Positions 26,328 to 51,888 of a stretch of 64,000 nucleotides of DNA are shown here, one piece after another. Under the pieces are notes generated by a model. The model did not search any database, was not told where the DNA came from, and was given only the letters and a program-made list of their open reading frames with translations. Positions within the stretch are counted from its first letter, which is position 1, and the number at the start of each line of letters is the position of its first letter. Origin of the DNA: an uncultured Pelagibacteraceae bacterium (GTDB lineage: Bacteria > Pseudomonadota > Alphaproteobacteria > Pelagibacterales > Pelagibacteraceae). Both the position numbers and the translations under genes were made by a program. Location: positions 1-64,000 of the forward strand of contig CACNWV010000005.1 of the NCBI GenBank assembly GCA_902624195.1, read 5' to 3'.

Positions 26328-26858
26328 CTATTTAAATGCCTCCAAAATACCTGGGTTAAAATATAAACCTAAGAGTTTGTTAAATAATAAGTAAACAAAT
26401 CCAGGGAATAAGATTGAATAAATAATTACTGCAATATAATTCCTTTCACCCCACAGTAGCGGTAGTGCCAAGCAAGTAATAACCATTGTTACTACAGCTC
26501 CTAAATATTCAGCAAAAGATACTATTGTTAATAATAGTAAAATCGTTAACCAAGTAATTGTTAAAGTTTTATCATCCCGATCTTTGTCAATCTTAGCTAC
26601 TTTTTCAGGGGTTAATTTGAATTCGAAAGGTATAATTGCAACCAACAAAAACATTATTGTAATCAGCATTTTTGGAAATACATCAGCGTTAAGTGTATCG
26701 CCTAATATTGCTGGTGCTTCAGGAAACTTACTAGCCTCATAATACATAAAGGCTCCAAACGCGACTAAAATTATCGCGAGTACTAAATCTCTTTTATGAA
26801 CAAATCCCGCGCCCAAAGTTCTGGGCGCGAAATCATGTATTTTTTTTTGGTCAGACAT
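26328..26858 (-). CDS. tctB: Tripartite tricarboxylate transporter, small permease TctB (system 1)
   Basis: A 176-residue membrane protein with four helices, the usual form of TctB. A strong GC-rich hairpin (26808-26829) lies within codons 10-17, just after the tctC/tctB junction. The gene starts three bases after tctC. Confidence 0.88.
   Translation of the reverse strand: MSDQKKIHDFAPRTLGAGFVHKRDLVLAIILVAFGAFMYYEASKFPEAPAILGDTLNADVFPKMLITIMFLLVAIIPFEFKLTPEKVAKIDKDRDDKTLTITWLTILLLLTIVSFAEYLGAVVTMVITCLALPLLWGERNYIAVIIYSILFPGFVYLLFNKLLGLYFNPGILEAFK
26808..26829 (-). other. GC-rich stem-loop inside the start of tctB
   Basis: Perfect eight-base arms CGCGCCCA (26808-26815) and TGGGCGCG (26822-26829) with a six-base loop. 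Such GC content is exceptional in this region. No T run follows on the minus strand, so it is not a classic terminator; it could slow ribosomes or RNase and protect the tctC message. Confidence 0.6.
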
Positions 26859-32038: not shown

Positions 32039-32072
32039 AAAAAAACCCGTAGAATGATCTACGGGTTTTTTT
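32036..32072. terminator. Bidirectional rho-independent terminator
   Basis: Perfect stem CCCGTAGA (32046-32053) and TCTACGGG (32058-32065) with an ATGA loop, an A run on the left and seven T residues on the right. It serves doxX rightward and the outer-membrane protein gene leftward. Confidence 0.93.
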
Positions 32073-32886: not shown

Positions 32887-34389
32887 CTAGTCATTTTTTT
32901 TCCAAAAACTCTTATAAACTTGCCAACTTACTATAACAAAAATAGTCATCATAATAACCATTGTTAGAGGCCGATCCCATAAAAAACTCCAAGAGCCATC
33001 GCTGATTAAAAGTGATCTTCTTAAATTTTCCTCCATTAAACCACCTAATACAAATGCGAGAATTAATGGTGGCATAGGAAAATCATACAAACGTAAAACA
33101 GTGGCTACTACGGCTATACCTATCATCATATAAATATCAAAGTTATTGAATGACATTAAATAAATTCCTGTTACTGAAAAAAATAAAATTAGAGGAATTA
33201 AAAATGTCCTCGGAGTAGCCAAAACTCTTGCTATATAAGGAATTAATGGAAGATTAAGAATTAAAAGTATTACCATCCCTATATACATCGACATTATAAC
33301 TGACCAAAAAATTTCAGGATTTGTTTGATAAAGTCTTGGTCCAGGCTGAATACCAAAACCTAGTAATGCTCCAAGCATAACTGCAGTTGTTCCGCTGCCT
33401 GGTATACCTAAAGTAAGTAACGGTACAAAAGACCCTGAGCAAGCTGCGTTATTTGCTGTTTCTGGTGCAGCCAATCCATTTATACTCCCTTTTCCAAATT
33501 TTTGCTTCTCTTCATCATTTACGAAATTTCGTTCCATTCCGTAAGCTAAGAATGACGCAATTGTAGATCCAGCTCCTGGTAAAACTCCAATTATAAAACC
33601 TAATACAGAAGACCTTGGAATTGTAGAAACCATCTTTTTAGTTTCAGCTTTATCTAATTTTATCGATCCTAATTGTGACAATGAAATTTGTTTAGCTACT
33701 CTTGTTGGATCATTTGCTTTAAAAATTATTGTCAAAGCTTCACTCATGGCAAAAGTAGCCATGACTACTAAGACAAAACTTATACCGTCTGATAAATTCA
33801 TATTTTGAAACGTAAATCTTGGTATATCTGAAAGTGTATCTTGACCAACACTTGCTAACATTAAACCTAGAACAACCATCATCATAGCTTTTAGAAAATG
33901 CCCTTTGGCGGAAAAAGCTGACACAGCAGTTAAACCCAGAATCATTAATCCAAAATAATCTGGTGATCTAAAAGCTAAACTTACTTTGGATAAACTTGGA
34001 GCAGCTATCAATAAAAAAATTGCTGCTATAGTACCACCAGCAAAAGAACTGTAAGCAGCAATTGCTAACGCCTTACCAGCTTTACCTTGTTGAGCCATTG
34101 GATAACCATCAAACGAAGTTGCAACAGTTCCAGGTATTCCTGGAGCATTAATTAATATTGAGGATGTTGATCCACCAAAAACTGCTCCGTAATAAACTCC
34201 AGCCATTAAAATTAAACCAGTCGAAGGCTCAAAGCCATAAGTAATTGGTATCATTAATGCTATTGCAGTCATAGGTCCTAAACCTGGAAGCATTCCAATT
34301 ATAGTGCCGGCGAAACAACCAATCATAACCATCATTAAATTTTTTAATGAAAGTGCTGTTTCTAAACCTATGAGTATTCCTTCGATCAT
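32887..34389 (-). CDS. tctA: Tripartite tricarboxylate transporter, large permease TctA (system 2)
   Basis: A 500-residue TctA with the hallmark GMLPGLGPMTAIALMIP start and the IPGSGTTAVMLGALLGFG repeat. It overlaps tctB by four bases. Partner of TctB and TctC of system 2, downstream of csiD, so the imported acid may be glutarate or a close relative rather than a tricarboxylate. Confidence 0.95.
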   Translation of the reverse strand: MIEGILIGLETALSLKNLMMVMIGCFAGTIIGMLPGLGPMTAIALMIPITYGFEPSTGLILMAGVYYGAVFGGSTSSILINAPGIPGTVATSFDGYPMAQQGKAGKALAIAAYSSFAGGTIAAIFLLIAAPSLSKVSLAFRSPDYFGLMILGLTAVSAFSAKGHFLKAMMMVVLGLMLASVGQDTLSDIPRFTFQNMNLSDGISFVLVVMATFAMSEALTIIFKANDPTRVAKQISLSQLGSIKLDKAETKKMVSTIPRSSVLGFIIGVLPGAGSTIASFLAYGMERNFVNDEEKQKFGKGSINGLAAPETANNAACSGSFVPLLTLGIPGSGTTAVMLGALLGFGIQPGPRLYQTNPEIFWSVIMSMYIGMVILLILNLPLIPYIARVLATPRTFLIPLILFFSVTGIYLMSFNNFDIYMMIGIAVVATVLRLYDFPMPPLILAFVLGGLMEENLRRSLLISDGSWSFLWDRPLTMVIMMTIFVIVSWQVYKSFWKKND

Positions 34390-34856
34390 CCCATTATTCC
34401 AATTAATTGTAAAAATGGATCACGAAGATAAATATTTAATAAGCCATGTAATAAATACATAAATATTGCCACAAAAGGAAAAGAAAGGATGAAAACCCAA
34501 ATCCATTTTCTTTCTCCTAGTGCAATGTAAGATAAAATTAAAAAAATTGAAGTTGAAAGGAAGTAGCCTGCCCTAAATATTGTTAGACCATATAAAATCA
34601 TAAGAATTACTAATGTAATTGTTCTTTTATAATCTAAAACTTTTAAATCAACATTCGAAGGTTTAGTCTCAGGTAAAATAATATATAGAGCTGAAAACAT
34701 CAGCCCTGCGTAACCTAAATATATTGGAAAAGTTTTAGCATTGAAAGCTGCGTCCTCGTCAAATGTAAAAACTTGAATTTGATATGCTGTATAAAGGTAA
34801 AAAGCTGAAAAAATAAAAAAGAGCAGTGAAATAATCTTTGAAGGACTTATTTTCAC
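34386..34856 (-). CDS. tctB: Tripartite tricarboxylate transporter, small permease TctB (system 2)
   Basis: A 156-residue, four-helix TctB. It starts with GTG at 34856, preceded by AAGGGAAGAG. The start codon and part of the ribosome site lie inside a strong stem-loop (34821-34862) that is followed by T residues, so both translation and transcription of tctB and tctA should be reduced relative to tctC. Overlaps tctA by four bases. Confidence 0.86.
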   Translation of the reverse strand: MKISPSKIISLLFFIFSAFYLYTAYQIQVFTFDEDAAFNAKTFPIYLGYAGLMFSALYIILPETKPSNVDLKVLDYKRTITLVILMILYGLTIFRAGYFLSTSIFLILSYIALGERKWIWVFILSFPFVAIFMYLLHGLLNIYLRDPFLQLIGIMG

Positions 34857-34862
34857 TGCTCT
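34815..34862 (-). terminator. Attenuator-like terminator across the tctC/tctB junction
   Basis: Arms at 34848-34862 and 34821-34834 pair over about 14 positions with one bulge (GAGCAGTGAAA with TTTCACTGCTC at the base). On the minus strand six T residues follow at 34820-34815, interrupted by A and then more T. The hairpin contains the GTG start of tctB. Confidence 0.75.
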
Positions 34863-34874
34863 TCCCTTATTTAT

Positions 34875-35867
34875 TTATTTAATTACGCCTAAATTTTTTA
34901 ACAAACCAGTCATCTCAACTGTTTGTTTTTCCAAAAATTTAACGAATTTTTTATCTGGGTTATAAATATTTACCCAAGCATTTCTTTTTCTTACTGCTTC
35001 CCACTCTGGTGTTTTTTGAACATCGCCTAACATTTTAGCAATTTTCTTTCTTTCACCATCGCTCATACCCGGAGGGCCAAAGAAACCTCTCCAGTTTACG
35101 AAAATAGCGTTAGTACCTTGTTCTTTCAGAGTTGGAACATCTGGAGCATCTGCGACTCTTTTCGGGGCTGTTATACCAAGAATTTTTACTTGATCTCTTG
35201 CACCCATAACTTCTCCCAAGCCTGTTGAAAGAATTTGAGTTTCGCCTGATAAAAGTCCAGCTAAGGCTTTTCCACCTGCATCATAAGGAATATAAACAAC
35301 ATCATTTGGATTAGCGCCAGCTTCTTTGAAAGCTAGAGCACCAATCAAATGGTCCATACTTCCTCTTACAGAGCCACCAGCCATTTTAACTGACTTAGGA
35401 TTTGCTTTGTAAGCAGCAACTACATCTTTCCAAGAATTATAAGGTGAATTTTTTGCTGCAACGATTGCACCATAATCACCAATAACACCAGCTATAGGAA
35501 CAACATCTTTATAAGATGTCACCTTTGCTGCATTTTTCTTATCTACATAACCAGAGTGTCTAGTTATTGATCTAAGAACTAATGGAGTTGATTGAACTAA
35601 AATTGTATCTGAAGGTTTAGTATTTATCATAAAAGATAAAGCTTTTCCTCCACCACCACCTGACATATTTTCAAATGATGCACTTTTTAAAAAACCAGCT
35701 TTAGTTAAAGCTTCACCAGTTCCTCTAGCAGTTCCATCCCAACCACCGCCAGCTCCACCGCCAATCACGAAGTGTAATTTGTCAGTTGCAAAAGATGTTT
35801 GTGAAATTGAAGTTAGAAGAACAGTTGCGAAAACTAAGCTGATAAGTTTTTTGAGCTTATTTAACAT
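34875..35867 (-). CDS. tctC: Tripartite tricarboxylate transporter binding protein TctC (system 2)
   Basis: A 330-residue TctC/Bug family periplasmic binding protein. The signal peptide ends near residue 27 (SFA/TDKL), followed by LHFVIGGGAGGGWDGTARG, the family's carboxylate-binding loop; PYDAGGKALAGLLSGE is the other ligand loop. It lies 72 bases after csiD on the same strand and has its own promoter, so glutarate or a related diacid is a plausible ligand. Confidence 0.92.
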   Translation of the reverse strand: MLNKLKKLISLVFATVLLTSISQTSFATDKLHFVIGGGAGGGWDGTARGTGEALTKAGFLKSASFENMSGGGGGKALSFMINTKPSDTILVQSTPLVLRSITRHSGYVDKKNAAKVTSYKDVVPIAGVIGDYGAIVAAKNSPYNSWKDVVAAYKANPKSVKMAGGSVRGSMDHLIGALAFKEAGANPNDVVYIPYDAGGKALAGLLSGETQILSTGLGEVMGARDQVKILGITAPKRVADAPDVPTLKEQGTNAIFVNWRGFFGPPGMSDGERKKIAKMLGDVQKTPEWEAVRKRNAWVNIYNPDKKFVKFLEKQTVEMTGLLKNLGVIK

Positions 35868-35939: not shown

Positions 35940-36836
35940 TTAATTAAAAAAAGTTCCTCTTATTCGCAGTAATTCCCGAGATAACCCAGAATGCTCTTTG
36001 AAAGCTTTCCTTCCATGCAACCAAAAGTAATTATTTGAGAAAATTGTGGAACCCACTGGTAAGGGAAAGCTTATTTTATTTTTACTTTGCTCTAAAGAGT
36101 CCGATAATTTTTGTAAAAATAAACCTTGCTTCATATTTTTTGGTTCAGGAAATTGGTCAATATAGGAAATAATTGGTTTTCCATTTTTATCTTTAGAAAA
36201 CACAGGGTGTTCTACCTTATAATCTACATTCTTACTTTTGGGTGAACCCCACACAAAGTCTTGTTGACCAACAGGGTCATTACTTAAATCTTCTAAATGT
36301 TCCCAATCATCTAAATGCAAAATTACACTTTCACCTCCACTTACATTCTGCTCTTCCATTTTTGTCATTATTAACCAGTCAGTTTTCTCTTTAACGTATG
36401 TTCCATCTGTATGAAGATCCAAATTTGTATAAGCTTTTCTTAGATAAGAGTCGCTACTGTCTTGGTGTTTTACGTAAAATCTAGCGTAATATTTTCCTGT
36501 CATAGAGTCAAAATTAGGATTTCCTATTAAATGAGCGAGCCCCGTAGAAAGTTTAACTAAAAAATCTTTATCAAATTTTCCATTCTTGATGTCTGGTTCA
36601 ACAATCGCAGTACCAGTATTACGATCATTAAGAATTTCACTTAACTTTATACTTAATTTATTTTGAAATACTTCATCCAGACTTTTTGCCAAACTAAATC
36701 TAGAAAATGGTTTGTACTCCAAAGATAAGATTGAGTGTTTTTTAAAAGGAAAAATCAATTTATCTAAATCGGTTTCATTTAATTTTATTACTCGGACTCT
36801 TTTCGAATTAGTATGATCTATTACAGAAAAGCTCAT
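35940..36836 (-). CDS. csiD: Glutarate 2-hydroxylase, CsiD/GlaH family
   Basis: A 298-residue Fe(II)/2-oxoglutarate dioxygenase. The Fe ligands are H142 and D144 (LHTDGTYV) and H274 (WLHGRKAF), with the C-terminal Arg cluster RELLRIRG for 2-oxoglutarate. Segments such as AHLIGNPNFDSMTGKYYARF and LHLDDWEHL match my recollection of E. coli CsiD closely. CsiD converts glutarate to L-2-hydroxyglutarate in lysine breakdown. No L-2-hydroxyglutarate oxidase gene is in the window. It lies between azlD and tctC, with a tiny ORF before it. Confidence 0.9.
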   Translation of the reverse strand: MSFSVIDHTNSKRVRVIKLNETDLDKLIFPFKKHSILSLEYKPFSRFSLAKSLDEVFQNKLSIKLSEILNDRNTGTAIVEPDIKNGKFDKDFLVKLSTGLAHLIGNPNFDSMTGKYYARFYVKHQDSSDSYLRKAYTNLDLHTDGTYVKEKTDWLIMTKMEEQNVSGGESVILHLDDWEHLEDLSNDPVGQQDFVWGSPKSKNVDYKVEHPVFSKDKNGKPIISYIDQFPEPKNMKQGLFLQKLSDSLEQSKNKISFPLPVGSTIFSNNYFWLHGRKAFKEHSGLSRELLRIRGTFFN

Positions 36837-40507: not shown

Positions 40508-41377
40508 TTAATGTTGACCCTCTTTAAAGTTTTCATAACGGTTATAAGTGCACCAAGTTCTTTTCTTGGATACTTTTTGTAATTTTTTATGAGAATATCT
40601 ATCTCTCCATTTATAATCAGGGTTAGGCGCGATACCTCTTCCAACTTCTGCGGCCATAGCACATTTTAATTCCACTGGATTGAAAGGTTTATCTGAGGTT
40701 GGTGTTAAAAAAACTAGGTCTTTCATATCTGGGCAGGCAGGATCTCCGTGATCATATATACTACCTAATCTGTATTTATCACCACTCTCGGGTCCTCCAA
40801 CGATTGTATTCCTAATATGACTGCCTCCATAATTTCCTTTGTTACACGTCCAGGCAAAACCAGCCACGTGAGCTAATTCATGCAGTGTCATAATACTTCT
40901 TTTTGCTTTATTACCAATGTATTTACTTTTTAAAAATATGTATCCATGATGAACGGATCCTTGACCGCCATCTCGATGACCAACATCAACCCATGAAAAA
41001 TAAAGTTTATTTGGATCATTAAATCCATTTTTTGTAAGAAAAGCATCTGGATAGTTCATTCCATAATTTCCTTTGTATTTTTTATCAAAACGAACAAACG
41101 AGATATCTAGTTTTCCATCTTTTCTCATATCATATCTAAATTTTTGTTTTCCCTTTGTCATTTCAAAAAATTTTTCATTTACTTCCATGAGTTCGGATTC
41201 CATTTTACCATTAATATCCCACTCCCTGTCTTTGCTATCTTTATTTAACAAGTATATGAAATGAACTTGTGGATCATTTGTTACATCTGGCTGATCTTTA
41301 AAAAATCTGCCTGGTTTTTCATCAGCAAACGCAGATGAAACCATCAACAAAGCTAAAAATAAAATAATTTTTCTCAT
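40508..41377 (-). CDS. Secreted zinc metalloprotease-like protein inside the liv operon
   Basis: A 289-residue protein with a signal peptide ending near residue 18 (SAFA/DEKP), so periplasmic or secreted. The zinc-binding HELAHVAGF has H166, E167 and H170. The metzincin third His position (176) is Trp, so the third ligand must be elsewhere, for example H187 or H210 (YDHGDPACPD). Four Cys (178, 215, 239, 276) could form two disulfides. It overlaps livH by four bases and ends two bases before livM, so it is a true operon member. Family not recognised; it may process peptides whose products the transporter takes up. Confidence 0.8.
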   Translation of the reverse strand: MRKIILFLALLMVSSAFADEKPGRFFKDQPDVTNDPQVHFIYLLNKDSKDREWDINGKMESELMEVNEKFFEMTKGKQKFRYDMRKDGKLDISFVRFDKKYKGNYGMNYPDAFLTKNGFNDPNKLYFSWVDVGHRDGGQGSVHHGYIFLKSKYIGNKAKRSIMTLHELAHVAGFAWTCNKGNYGGSHIRNTIVGGPESGDKYRLGSIYDHGDPACPDMKDLVFLTPTSDKPFNPVELKCAMAAEVGRGIAPNPDYKWRDRYSHKKLQKVSKKRTWCTYNRYENFKEGQH

Positions 41378-42267
41378 TTTAAATATTCCCTTTTTTTCGA
41401 AAGTTTAAATCTTCTGTAAACTAATATTAAGACTAGTAATAAAAATACTGCACCTATTCTAAATTCTGTTCCTAAAATATAATCAGCAAATTCCTCAAAA
41501 AGACCTAACCCCATCCCTGAAACCGCCACTGCTGGTAAATTACCTAGACCCGCTACTATCACTATCATGAAAGATCTAACTGTATAAGGAAGTCCTACAT
41601 AAGGGTGAAGAGTAAGAGTAATTGAAATTAATGCTCCTGCAATTCCACATAGCGCAGCGTTAATTCCAAAAGTTGCAGCATAAACTTTTTCTGTATCTAC
41701 ACCTAAAATTTTTGCAGCTCTAGCATTTTGTGCTGTAGCTCTTATAGCTCGTCCAAGTCTGGATTTTTTCATGTAAATAACCAAAGCTACTGCATACAGA
41801 ACACTTATAAAAGCTGAGAATATTTTTGAATTTGGTAGAGTAACTGAATTGTCAAATAACATTGTAGTTCCGTATTCAGATTGTGCAACAACTACATCTG
41901 CGCCAAAAATAAAATTCATTAATTGCTGGAATACAATGGCGATACCAAAAGTTGCTAAAATTGAAATAAATAAATCTCGATCCACAACTTTATTAATCAC
42001 AAGTTTGTAAAGTCCCCATCCAACAAAAAACATTATAATTGGAGAAATGATAACTCCCCATGCTGGATGAATTCCCCAAAGATAAATAGTGTATGCAATA
42101 TATCCTCCAAGAATAACTAGATCGCCCTGCGCAATATTGATTATATTCATCACTCCCCATTGAAGAGCCATTCCGTAAGCAATTAGTGCAAATAAAATAC
42201 CTAAAAGAATTCCGTCCAATGAAGCTTGGACCATTAACATTGGAGCTTTAAAAATAAGAAAGTCCAT
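41374..42267 (-). CDS. livH: Branched-chain amino-acid ABC transporter permease LivH (system 2)
   Basis: A 297-residue LivH permease with GMALQWGVMNIINIAQGD near residue 27 and the coupling segment RATAQNARAAKILGVD. It is 68 bases after the binding-protein gene, across a hairpin (42290-42317), and overlaps the metalloprotease gene by four bases. Confidence 0.93.
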   Translation of the reverse strand: MDFLIFKAPMLMVQASLDGILLGILFALIAYGMALQWGVMNIINIAQGDLVILGGYIAYTIYLWGIHPAWGVIISPIIMFFVGWGLYKLVINKVVDRDLFISILATFGIAIVFQQLMNFIFGADVVVAQSEYGTTMLFDNSVTLPNSKIFSAFISVLYAVALVIYMKKSRLGRAIRATAQNARAAKILGVDTEKVYAATFGINAALCGIAGALISITLTLHPYVGLPYTVRSFMIVIVAGLGNLPAVAVSGMGLGLFEEFADYILGTEFRIGAVFLLLVLILVYRRFKLSKKREYLK

Positions 42268-42281
42268 AAAATTTCAAAACT

Positions 42282-42317
42282 TATAAAAGAAAAGCCCCTA
42301 GAAAACTAGAGGCTTTT
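42282..42317 (-). terminator. Terminator-like hairpin between binding protein and livH (system 2)
   Basis: Arms AAAAGCCCCTAG (42290-42301) and CTAGAGGCTTTT (42306-42317) pair with one mismatch around an AAAA loop. On the minus strand the stem ends in TTTTCTTTTAT, a fair U tract. It probably stops part of the transcription after the binding-protein gene and leaves livH and the rest at lower level. Confidence 0.75.
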
Positions 42318-42335
42318 CAAATTATCTAGAAGCTA

Positions 42336-43577
42336 TTAACTTCTGTCAGACCATTTCGGGATTGGATGATAGAACTTATCAGAAGCCCATTTTGTAGGAG
42401 CTACTACTCTATTCTCACAATCATCGCCTTTACATCTTACTTGGAACAAGATCATTGGCTTAGCAACGTTTTGGCCACCAGGTCCAAATTTAATGTTTCC
42501 ATAGAAAGTTTGCATTTCTGTATCAACTAGCGCATCTCTAACTGCATCTCTGTCAAAAGAATTTGCTCTTTCGAACGCATCTTTAAATACTAATAATGCT
42601 GCAGAAGACTCTGCTGATTGATATGGCGGGTCATATCCAAATTCTTTTTGGAAGTCTTTAGCGTATTTCTTACCAGAGCCAAAGAATTTATCTTTGTAAG
42701 ACAAATTTTTGTGCCACTGAGAAGCACACAATGCGAATTCTGATTTCTTTCCGTGTTGTTTAGAAAGTTTTGCAGCATCACAGTGTGTCATCGCTAACAT
42801 AGGAACATCAACTTTCATTTCAGAAATTTGTCTGATCGCAGTTAATGCGCCTTTTGTGTGACCTGATACAACAAGTACATCTGGCTTAACAGCTTTTACT
42901 TTAGCCAATGTAGCTGCCATATCGTTAAGTTCTTTTGGTAGTTTGTCATCGATGATGATCTCAGATCCAGTTCTTTTTGCTGCATCTAAAATACCAAGTC
43001 TCACGTCTTGTGAGAAAGCATCTTGTTCAAATGCTTGAGCAATTTTTACTCCTTTACCACCGTTTTTTTCTACCGCTAAATCAATAGCTACTTCAAGGTA
43101 TTGGTTAGCTGGTGATAACACCGCGAACAAATATTTGTATCCTTTAGTAAATAAAGATCTAGATGCACCATTTGCTTCAACCATAGGAATTTTATATTTC
43201 TCGGTTACTGGTGCAATGGCTTTCGTTAAACCTGAACTGTATGGTCCAAGCATGTAATGAACGCCATCTTGTTTAATTAGTCTTTCAGCTAACTGAGCGG
43301 CTCTTTTTGGGTTTGACTCATCATCATAGTAAATGATCTCAAACTTATATTTCTTACCTTGAACTTCCACTCCACCCATTTTGTTAATTCTGTCAACGGC
43401 CATGTTATAACCATTTTGAGTATGAACTCCATTTGAAGAGTATTTTCCTGTAAGAGATATTGCAGAACCTAACACAATGTACTCCCCATCTACTTTTGCA
43501 AAAGAAGATGTAAAAGAAACAAGTGCTAAAGTTATAGCTGAAATAGATGTAATAATTAGTTTAACTAATTTATTCAT
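42336..43577 (-). CDS. Branched-chain/amino-acid ABC transporter, periplasmic binding protein (system 2)
   Basis: A 413-residue peripla_BP_6 binding protein. The signal peptide ends near residue 27 (SSFA/KVDG), then YIVLGSAISLTGKYSSNG and the typical RAAQLAERLIKQDGVHYMLGP. It is longer than LivJ (367 residues) and ends in a Cys-containing tail (RCKGDDCENR, a possible disulfide). Ligand unknown; amino acids, amides or short peptides are options. First gene of the system 2 operon with its own promoter. Confidence 0.92.
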   Translation of the reverse strand: MNKLVKLIITSISAITLALVSFTSSFAKVDGEYIVLGSAISLTGKYSSNGVHTQNGYNMAVDRINKMGGVEVQGKKYKFEIIYYDDESNPKRAAQLAERLIKQDGVHYMLGPYSSGLTKAIAPVTEKYKIPMVEANGASRSLFTKGYKYLFAVLSPANQYLEVAIDLAVEKNGGKGVKIAQAFEQDAFSQDVRLGILDAAKRTGSEIIIDDKLPKELNDMAATLAKVKAVKPDVLVVSGHTKGALTAIRQISEMKVDVPMLAMTHCDAAKLSKQHGKKSEFALCASQWHKNLSYKDKFFGSGKKYAKDFQKEFGYDPPYQSAESSAALLVFKDAFERANSFDRDAVRDALVDTEMQTFYGNIKFGPGGQNVAKPMILFQVRCKGDDCENRVVAPTKWASDKFYHPIPKWSDRS

Positions 43578-51811: not shown

Positions 51812-51830
51812 GGAACAAACTAAAATTGAA

Positions 51831-51888
51831 CCGGGTATTTGAACCATATTGTACACCTGGCATATGCCGAAGTACTAAAAAGGAGAAG
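51831..51888 (+). promoter_or_regulatory. SAM-V-like riboswitch over a ribosome site
   Basis: Between the terminator and the first leader ORF lies ATTTGAACCATATTGTAC, then AAGTACTAAAAAGGAG, matching the SAM-V pattern (ATTG-C/T-AC and AAGT-x-CT-A/G-AAAAGG). GTAC (51851-51854) can pair with GTAC (51872-51875). The AAAAAGGAG end is the ribosome site of the leader ORF at 51889, so SAM binding should block its translation. A SAM-II then SAM-V order is known from Pelagibacter. Confidence 0.75.

Follow-up and report, generated by a model that had tools for sequence, protein, structure and literature searches.

RBS-sequestering hairpins are usually located in 5′ leaders and have a switching partner. 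Another kind of element is known at the internal boundaries of transporter operons: in cellulolytic Clostridia, internal intrinsic terminators follow the solute-binding protein (SBP) genes of ABC importers, where partial termination of 21-96% was measured, and partial termination after binding-protein genes is also proposed for E. coli (PMC9045158). Because post-SBP termination has been measured in Clostridia, the kind as such is already known. For the SAR11 bacterium 'Ca. Pelagibacter ubique', structured RNAs have been surveyed in intergenic regions only (PMC2704228), so that a hairpin in the coding sequence of tctB was outside the scope of that survey and was missed. Here we describe such a hairpin in the window, a 64,000-nucleotide stretch of DNA from an uncultured Pelagibacteraceae bacterium; our literature searches found no description of this tctB element.

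The genes concerned are on the minus strand in the order tctC, tctB and tctA, a tripartite tricarboxylate transporter (TTT) operon in which all three were assigned by Pfam. The stop codon of tctC (34875-35867, Pfam TctC), encoding the solute-binding protein, is 18 nt upstream of the GTG of tctB (34386-34856, Pfam TctB; small membrane subunit), and the ATG of tctA (32887-34389; large membrane subunit) overlaps the tctB stop codon by 4 nt, on which ground tctA is probably coupled translationally to tctB. The hairpin (34820-34862, minus strand) occupies the SBP-permease boundary of this operon, with tctC upstream and tctB and tctA downstream on the same strand, and it is not intergenic. Its left arm (34862-34847, positions -6 to +10) contains the GTG (34854-34856), the loop corresponds to 34846-34835, and the right arm (34834-34820) consists of tctB codons 8-13 (I I S L L F). 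The T tract TTTTTTATTTTTT (34808-34820) forms codons 13-17 (F F I F), so the right arm and the tract together make up codons 8-17. A Shine-Dalgarno-like AAGGGA (34863-34868) pairs in part with the T tract. The gene next upstream of tctCBA is csiD (35940-36836, minus strand; glutarate 2-hydroxylase family), an arrangement found in 51 of 80 relatives. This adjacency suggests glutarate, or a dicarboxylate related to it, as a possible import substrate of the transporter. csiD is not adjacent to tctC in the VNINTTK clade, and the retention of the hairpin where csiD does not adjoin tctC ties it to the tctC-tctB boundary and not to the wider operon.

The stem is formed by GAGCAGTGAAAATAAG...GATTATTTCACTGCTC and is followed by TTTTTTATTTTTT (minus strand, 34862-34815). 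The RNA of 48 bases, AGAGCAGUGAAAAUAAGUCCUUCAAAGAUUAUUUCACUGCUCU, after which UUUUUUAUUUUUU comes next, folds at -18.0 kcal/mol (z = -5.7), and none of 200 shuffled sequences was equally stable. The core comprises 11 pairs, from position -6 to +4 relative to the GTG; beyond a bulge there are approximately 5-6 further inner pairs, and some pairs outside the core are A-U or G-U. Just a handful of stems this large occur within the 64 kb, and the hairpin is absent from a terminator scan because the loop limit of that scan is 8. The original prediction had placed a stem with a T tract on the first codons of tctB, hiding the GTG, and had given no strand. Stem and position were confirmed on the minus strand, the plus-strand reading being without a good T tract. 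The occlusion was confirmed as well: the GTG is wholly paired (pairing probability 1.00), and opening positions -10 to +6 costs 23.1 kcal/mol, compared with a mean of 4.4 (SD 3.2) over the 68 ORF starts in the window, among which tctB is the most occluded and the second-highest value is 9.7 kcal/mol. Over 112 junctions, the opening energy ranged from 11.5 to 24.3 kcal/mol. No alternative stem was found at the tctB junction, and no switching partner was seen.

We collected 145 tctC-tctB junctions (131 distinct), of which 105 came from the genus and 40 were drawn from eight Pelagibacteraceae genera. The stem was present in all 145, and the start codon was GTG in all of them, always inside the stem. 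The codons of the right arm were strongly biased: Leu codon 11 was CTG in 94 of 95 and Leu codon 12 was CTC in 89 of 95, compared with 1.1% and 3.8% of Leu codons, respectively, elsewhere in tctB. On a tree made from the rest of the gene, these two codons changed once and 4 times, whereas other invariant Leu columns changed 14-36 times, and all four changes at codon 12 were CTC to CTT and were paired with a G-to-A change upstream of the start. Among 22 parsimony changes in the 11-pair core, pairing was kept in 19, of which 4 were compensatory double changes and 15 kept a wobble pair, and 3 broke a pair. Changes that are mostly compensatory or wobble-preserving indicate an RNA structure. In addition, codon 2 was compatible with the silent third base of Ile codon 9 in 127 of 131 junctions (87 when shuffled), and RNAalifold recovered the stem unguided at -17.15, compared with -0.1 ± 0.4 in column-permuted alignments, although its covariation term alone gives no positive support because most pairs are invariant. 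Judged from this pattern of substitution, the hairpin is under strong selection, which has preserved the stem across the family Pelagibacteraceae even though this entails rare codons. Chance structure or protein constraint alone was ruled out by the rare Leu codons and the compensatory changes.

The usage at Ser codon 10 (TCA 114, TCG 17 and TCT 1, against a background of TCT 354, TCA 340 and TCG 33) accepts a wobble partner but not a mismatch, a choice that agrees with U-G wobble pairing in RNA but not with a palindromic DNA site. This bears on whether the inverted repeat might be an operator bound by a regulator at the DNA level, as the near-perfect palindromic arms and their constant spacing would allow. 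We disfavour that reading as very improbable, since G-U-type changes and TCG in preference to TCT are tolerated, breaking the DNA symmetry but not the RNA pairing, and since the motif occurs only at tctB and without promoter context. A repeat or mobile element was ruled out, both arms being found together only at tctB in 61 genomes, and no viral relatives were found. The Rfam search gave no family at gathering score at the hairpin site, where the matches were sub-threshold and at chance level, ruling out a known RNA family. Elsewhere in the window, a SAM-V riboswitch (51824-51888, plus strand) exceeds the Rfam gathering score.

The original prediction treated the hairpin as a single site; the site stands, but its family-wide and recurrent nature, evident in the 145 junctions and in seven tctB lineages, had been missed. 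A hairpin at, within or just before the tctB start was found in 16 of 16 tctC-tctB regions from seven SAR11 tctB lineages, with fold z of -2.4 to -6.3, in a modest lineage sampling where start codons of the other lineages were assigned mechanically and the tctC of lineage F was assigned by a weak Pfam hit. By contrast, no hairpin was present in any of the four sampled regions in which the gene before tctB is tctA or an unrelated one (z of -0.9 to +1.4; the upstream tctA of one, L235, was assigned by similarity of a fragment). The hairpin sequences are unrelated between lineages. In lineages B and C the hairpin is in codons past the start and not on it, lineages D, E and E2 have an intergenic hairpin, and that of lineage F is wrapped around the start. 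Lineage C (L230, L234, L237-L248; L182, L184-L196) carries a textbook terminator, GGGCAAAC AAAA GTTTGCCC TTTTTTTTT (T8-9), in tctB codons 7-18, which encode ...RANKSLPFFF..., and in other genera the arms and the peptide change together. In many members of this lineage, the start codon is also enclosed by another, small hairpin, GTACATT..AATGTAC. The other tctB in the window (system 1, 26328-26858) has its own unrelated hairpin without a T tract, GATTTCGCGCCCAGAACTTTGGGCGCGGGATT (26803-26834, minus strand), at codons 9-18 and hence in the first 20 codons, and its homologs in other genera have different arms in the same place. As far as these sequences can tell, the design is family-wide and recurrent, having appeared repeatedly and independently in one transporter type.

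Other transport systems of the same genome have comparable boundaries. A hairpin with a T-rich tail (42289-42318, minus strand) separates a Peripla_BP_6 binding-protein gene (42336-43577) from a permease gene (41374-42267) of a branched-chain system, and further SBP/permease hairpins were found in DctP-DctQ, an SBP_bac_3 system and a sugar system. Between two permease genes of the branched-chain amino acid transporter operon there is also a gene (40508-41377, minus strand) for a 289-aa protein with a HELAH metalloprotease-like motif, for which no Pfam match was found.

Most of the other SAR11 tctC-tctB hairpins (lineages B, D, E and E2) lack a T tract, and outside SAR11, in other Alphaproteobacteria, hairpins after tctC are common and again mostly without one. 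Since most of them are without the tract, they must share some function other than termination. Among non-SAR11 Alphaproteobacteria, some tctB genes (L273 (G380), L252, L277 and L278) have long stems in their first codons, such as AACCAAGGCAACGG..CCGTTGCCTTGGTT in L273. The hairpins without T tracts at the same boundary would suit a stabiliser of the 3′ end, which, after cleavage in tctB, stops 3′-to-5′ exonucleases so that tctC mRNA outlives tctBA mRNA, a role that stable intercistronic hairpins are documented to have (PMC9045158, discussion). Taken by itself, this explanation leaves both the T tract and the invariant overlap with the GTG unexplained, and we regard it as rather unlikely in that form; stabilisation may nevertheless operate alongside the main explanation.

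Concerning termination, the T tract does follow the stem as had been claimed, and it is of terminator grade. On a TransTerm-style scale in our own implementation, its tail score in the clade studied was -5.95, comparable to that of the convergent-gene terminator at 32039 (-5.5), and only 0.75% of the 15-mers in the window reach -5. The site thus has the features of an intrinsic terminator, namely a stable, G+C-bearing hairpin and a T tract directly after the stem. Tails were terminator-grade in most clades, with 7 T in the first 8 tail bases in nearly all of them. In the VKISPSKLI clade, the tract is interrupted (tail -3.95) and the full stem is retained, which makes the stem the more conserved part. 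Because the tract encodes Phe-Phe-Ile/Val-Phe, its T content is no higher than codon usage predicts. These comparisons show a sequence that would allow termination in almost all cases and that requires the stem in every case. Of the original proposal that the element both terminates transcription after tctC and limits tctB translation, the boundary position, the conserved RNA stem, the hidden start and the T tract held, but the tract is also expected from AT-rich Phe-Phe-Ile-Phe coding. Since it is so expected and is interrupted in one clade, the element could mainly serve to occlude the start or to protect the 3′ end of tctC mRNA.

Each half of the proposal was also weighed alone. The element might be a terminator and nothing else, with start occlusion as a side effect of fitting it into coding sequence. 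The strong tails, the terminator inside tctB of lineage C (GGGCAAAC AAAA GTTTGCCC T9) and the further internal terminators that the same genome has behind binding-protein genes agree with this, but the weak tail beside a full stem in the VKISPSKLI clade and the location of the GTG within the stem at every one of the 145 junctions do not, and we consider it doubtful. Conversely, the stem might serve only as a gate on translation, hiding the start until some factor, or a ribosome completing tctC, opens the stem, with the T tract as a by-product of Phe-rich transmembrane coding in an AT-rich genome. Consistent with a gate, the stem is better conserved than the tract, TTT is no commoner than background at codons 13 and 16, the GTG is invariant and one large clade has no Shine-Dalgarno-like sequence. 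Such a gate does not, however, account for the 7 T kept among the first 8 tail bases in nearly all clades, nor for the hairpins past the start in lineages B and C, the latter a textbook terminator; and the tctC stop precedes the GTG by 17-35 nt, in most cases too great a distance for a terminating ribosome to melt the stem. This explanation also seems unlikely to us.

How tctB is translated at all must be considered, because a stem this stable would almost fully shut off tctB, and something must therefore open it. No ATG, GTG or TTG follows the GTG within the first 22 codons of tctB in the window, and a stop upstream closes the frame, ruling out an alternative start. Melting by the terminating ribosome looks unlikely as a general rule, the gap from the tctC stop to the GTG varying from 17 to 35 nt across junctions. 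In the VNINTTK clade (L147, L140-L146 and others), tctB has no Shine-Dalgarno-like sequence, starts with GTG and has its start region buried. Co-transcriptional entry of the ribosome is one candidate for translation past the stem. An extension of this, which we hold only tentatively and find improbable, is that the tctB start region is an attenuator read by the ribosome: a ribosome finishing tctC would restart at the GTG of tctB ahead of transcription of the right arm, so that the terminator fails to fold, and without such a restart transcription would stop. If true, the ratio of permease to binding protein would track translation capacity with neither a leader peptide nor a ligand involved, and RNA would dictate the N-terminal residues of TctB.

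Our preferred reading, to which we assign a probability of about 60%, is that the hairpin is a cis-acting element, recoded into the permease gene, that would set the ratio of binding protein to permease by partial termination combined with start occlusion. As RNA, the tctC message end together with tctB codons 1-14 can fold into a stable stem burying the GTG, and the stem with its T tract would stop part of the RNA polymerases just past tctC, leaving a short tctC message that ends in a protective 3′ hairpin. On read-through transcripts, the refolded stem would bar ribosomes from tctB and, via the start/stop overlap, from tctA. Both effects would reduce the amount of TctB relative to TctC and probably, because of the 4-nt overlap, that of TctA as well, and the predicted outcome is abundant TctC and scarce TctBA. 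In streamlined genomes, the element would sit in the permease coding sequence in place of an intergenic spacer. High-affinity binding proteins dominate transport in SAR11, and there is almost no intergenic space in which to favour the binding protein over the permease within one operon; the control element appears to have been moved into the permease gene, constraining codons and, in some lineages, amino acids. Surveys of intergenic regions alone miss such elements. The reading gives a concrete and cheaply testable prediction for abundant ocean bacteria.

We finally compared the element with the known systems. The rhtB element and other structured RNAs known from 'Ca. Pelagibacter ubique' (PMC2704228) are likewise SAR11 hairpins near transporter genes, some of them with a poly-U run. 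The tctB element resembles RBS-sequestering hairpins in that the start codon and the Shine-Dalgarno-like sequence are buried in a stem, and differs in its location at an internal operon boundary, its terminator-like tail and the lack of a visible partner. As in the bmrB-bmrCD attenuator of Bacillus subtilis, a terminator-type hairpin is located inside a coding region upstream of transporter genes; that system, however, uses a leader peptide gene and alternative stems and responds to ribosome-targeting antibiotics, whereas the SAR11 element is in the gene of a transporter subunit itself (PMC4191407). The closest likeness is with the post-SBP terminators of Clostridia (PMC9045158), which likewise come directly behind the binding-protein gene, ahead of the permease gene, and share varied T-tract strength, long stems and a T tract partly paired with upstream A's. 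Those elements are intergenic, while the SAR11 element is within the downstream coding sequence and holds its start codon; it serves a TTT transporter and not an ABC importer, and, unlike them, it is kept across the family by codon choice. Relative to this known kind, what is new is the overlap with coding sequence, the hidden start, the family-wide conservation via codon choice and the repeated independent appearance.
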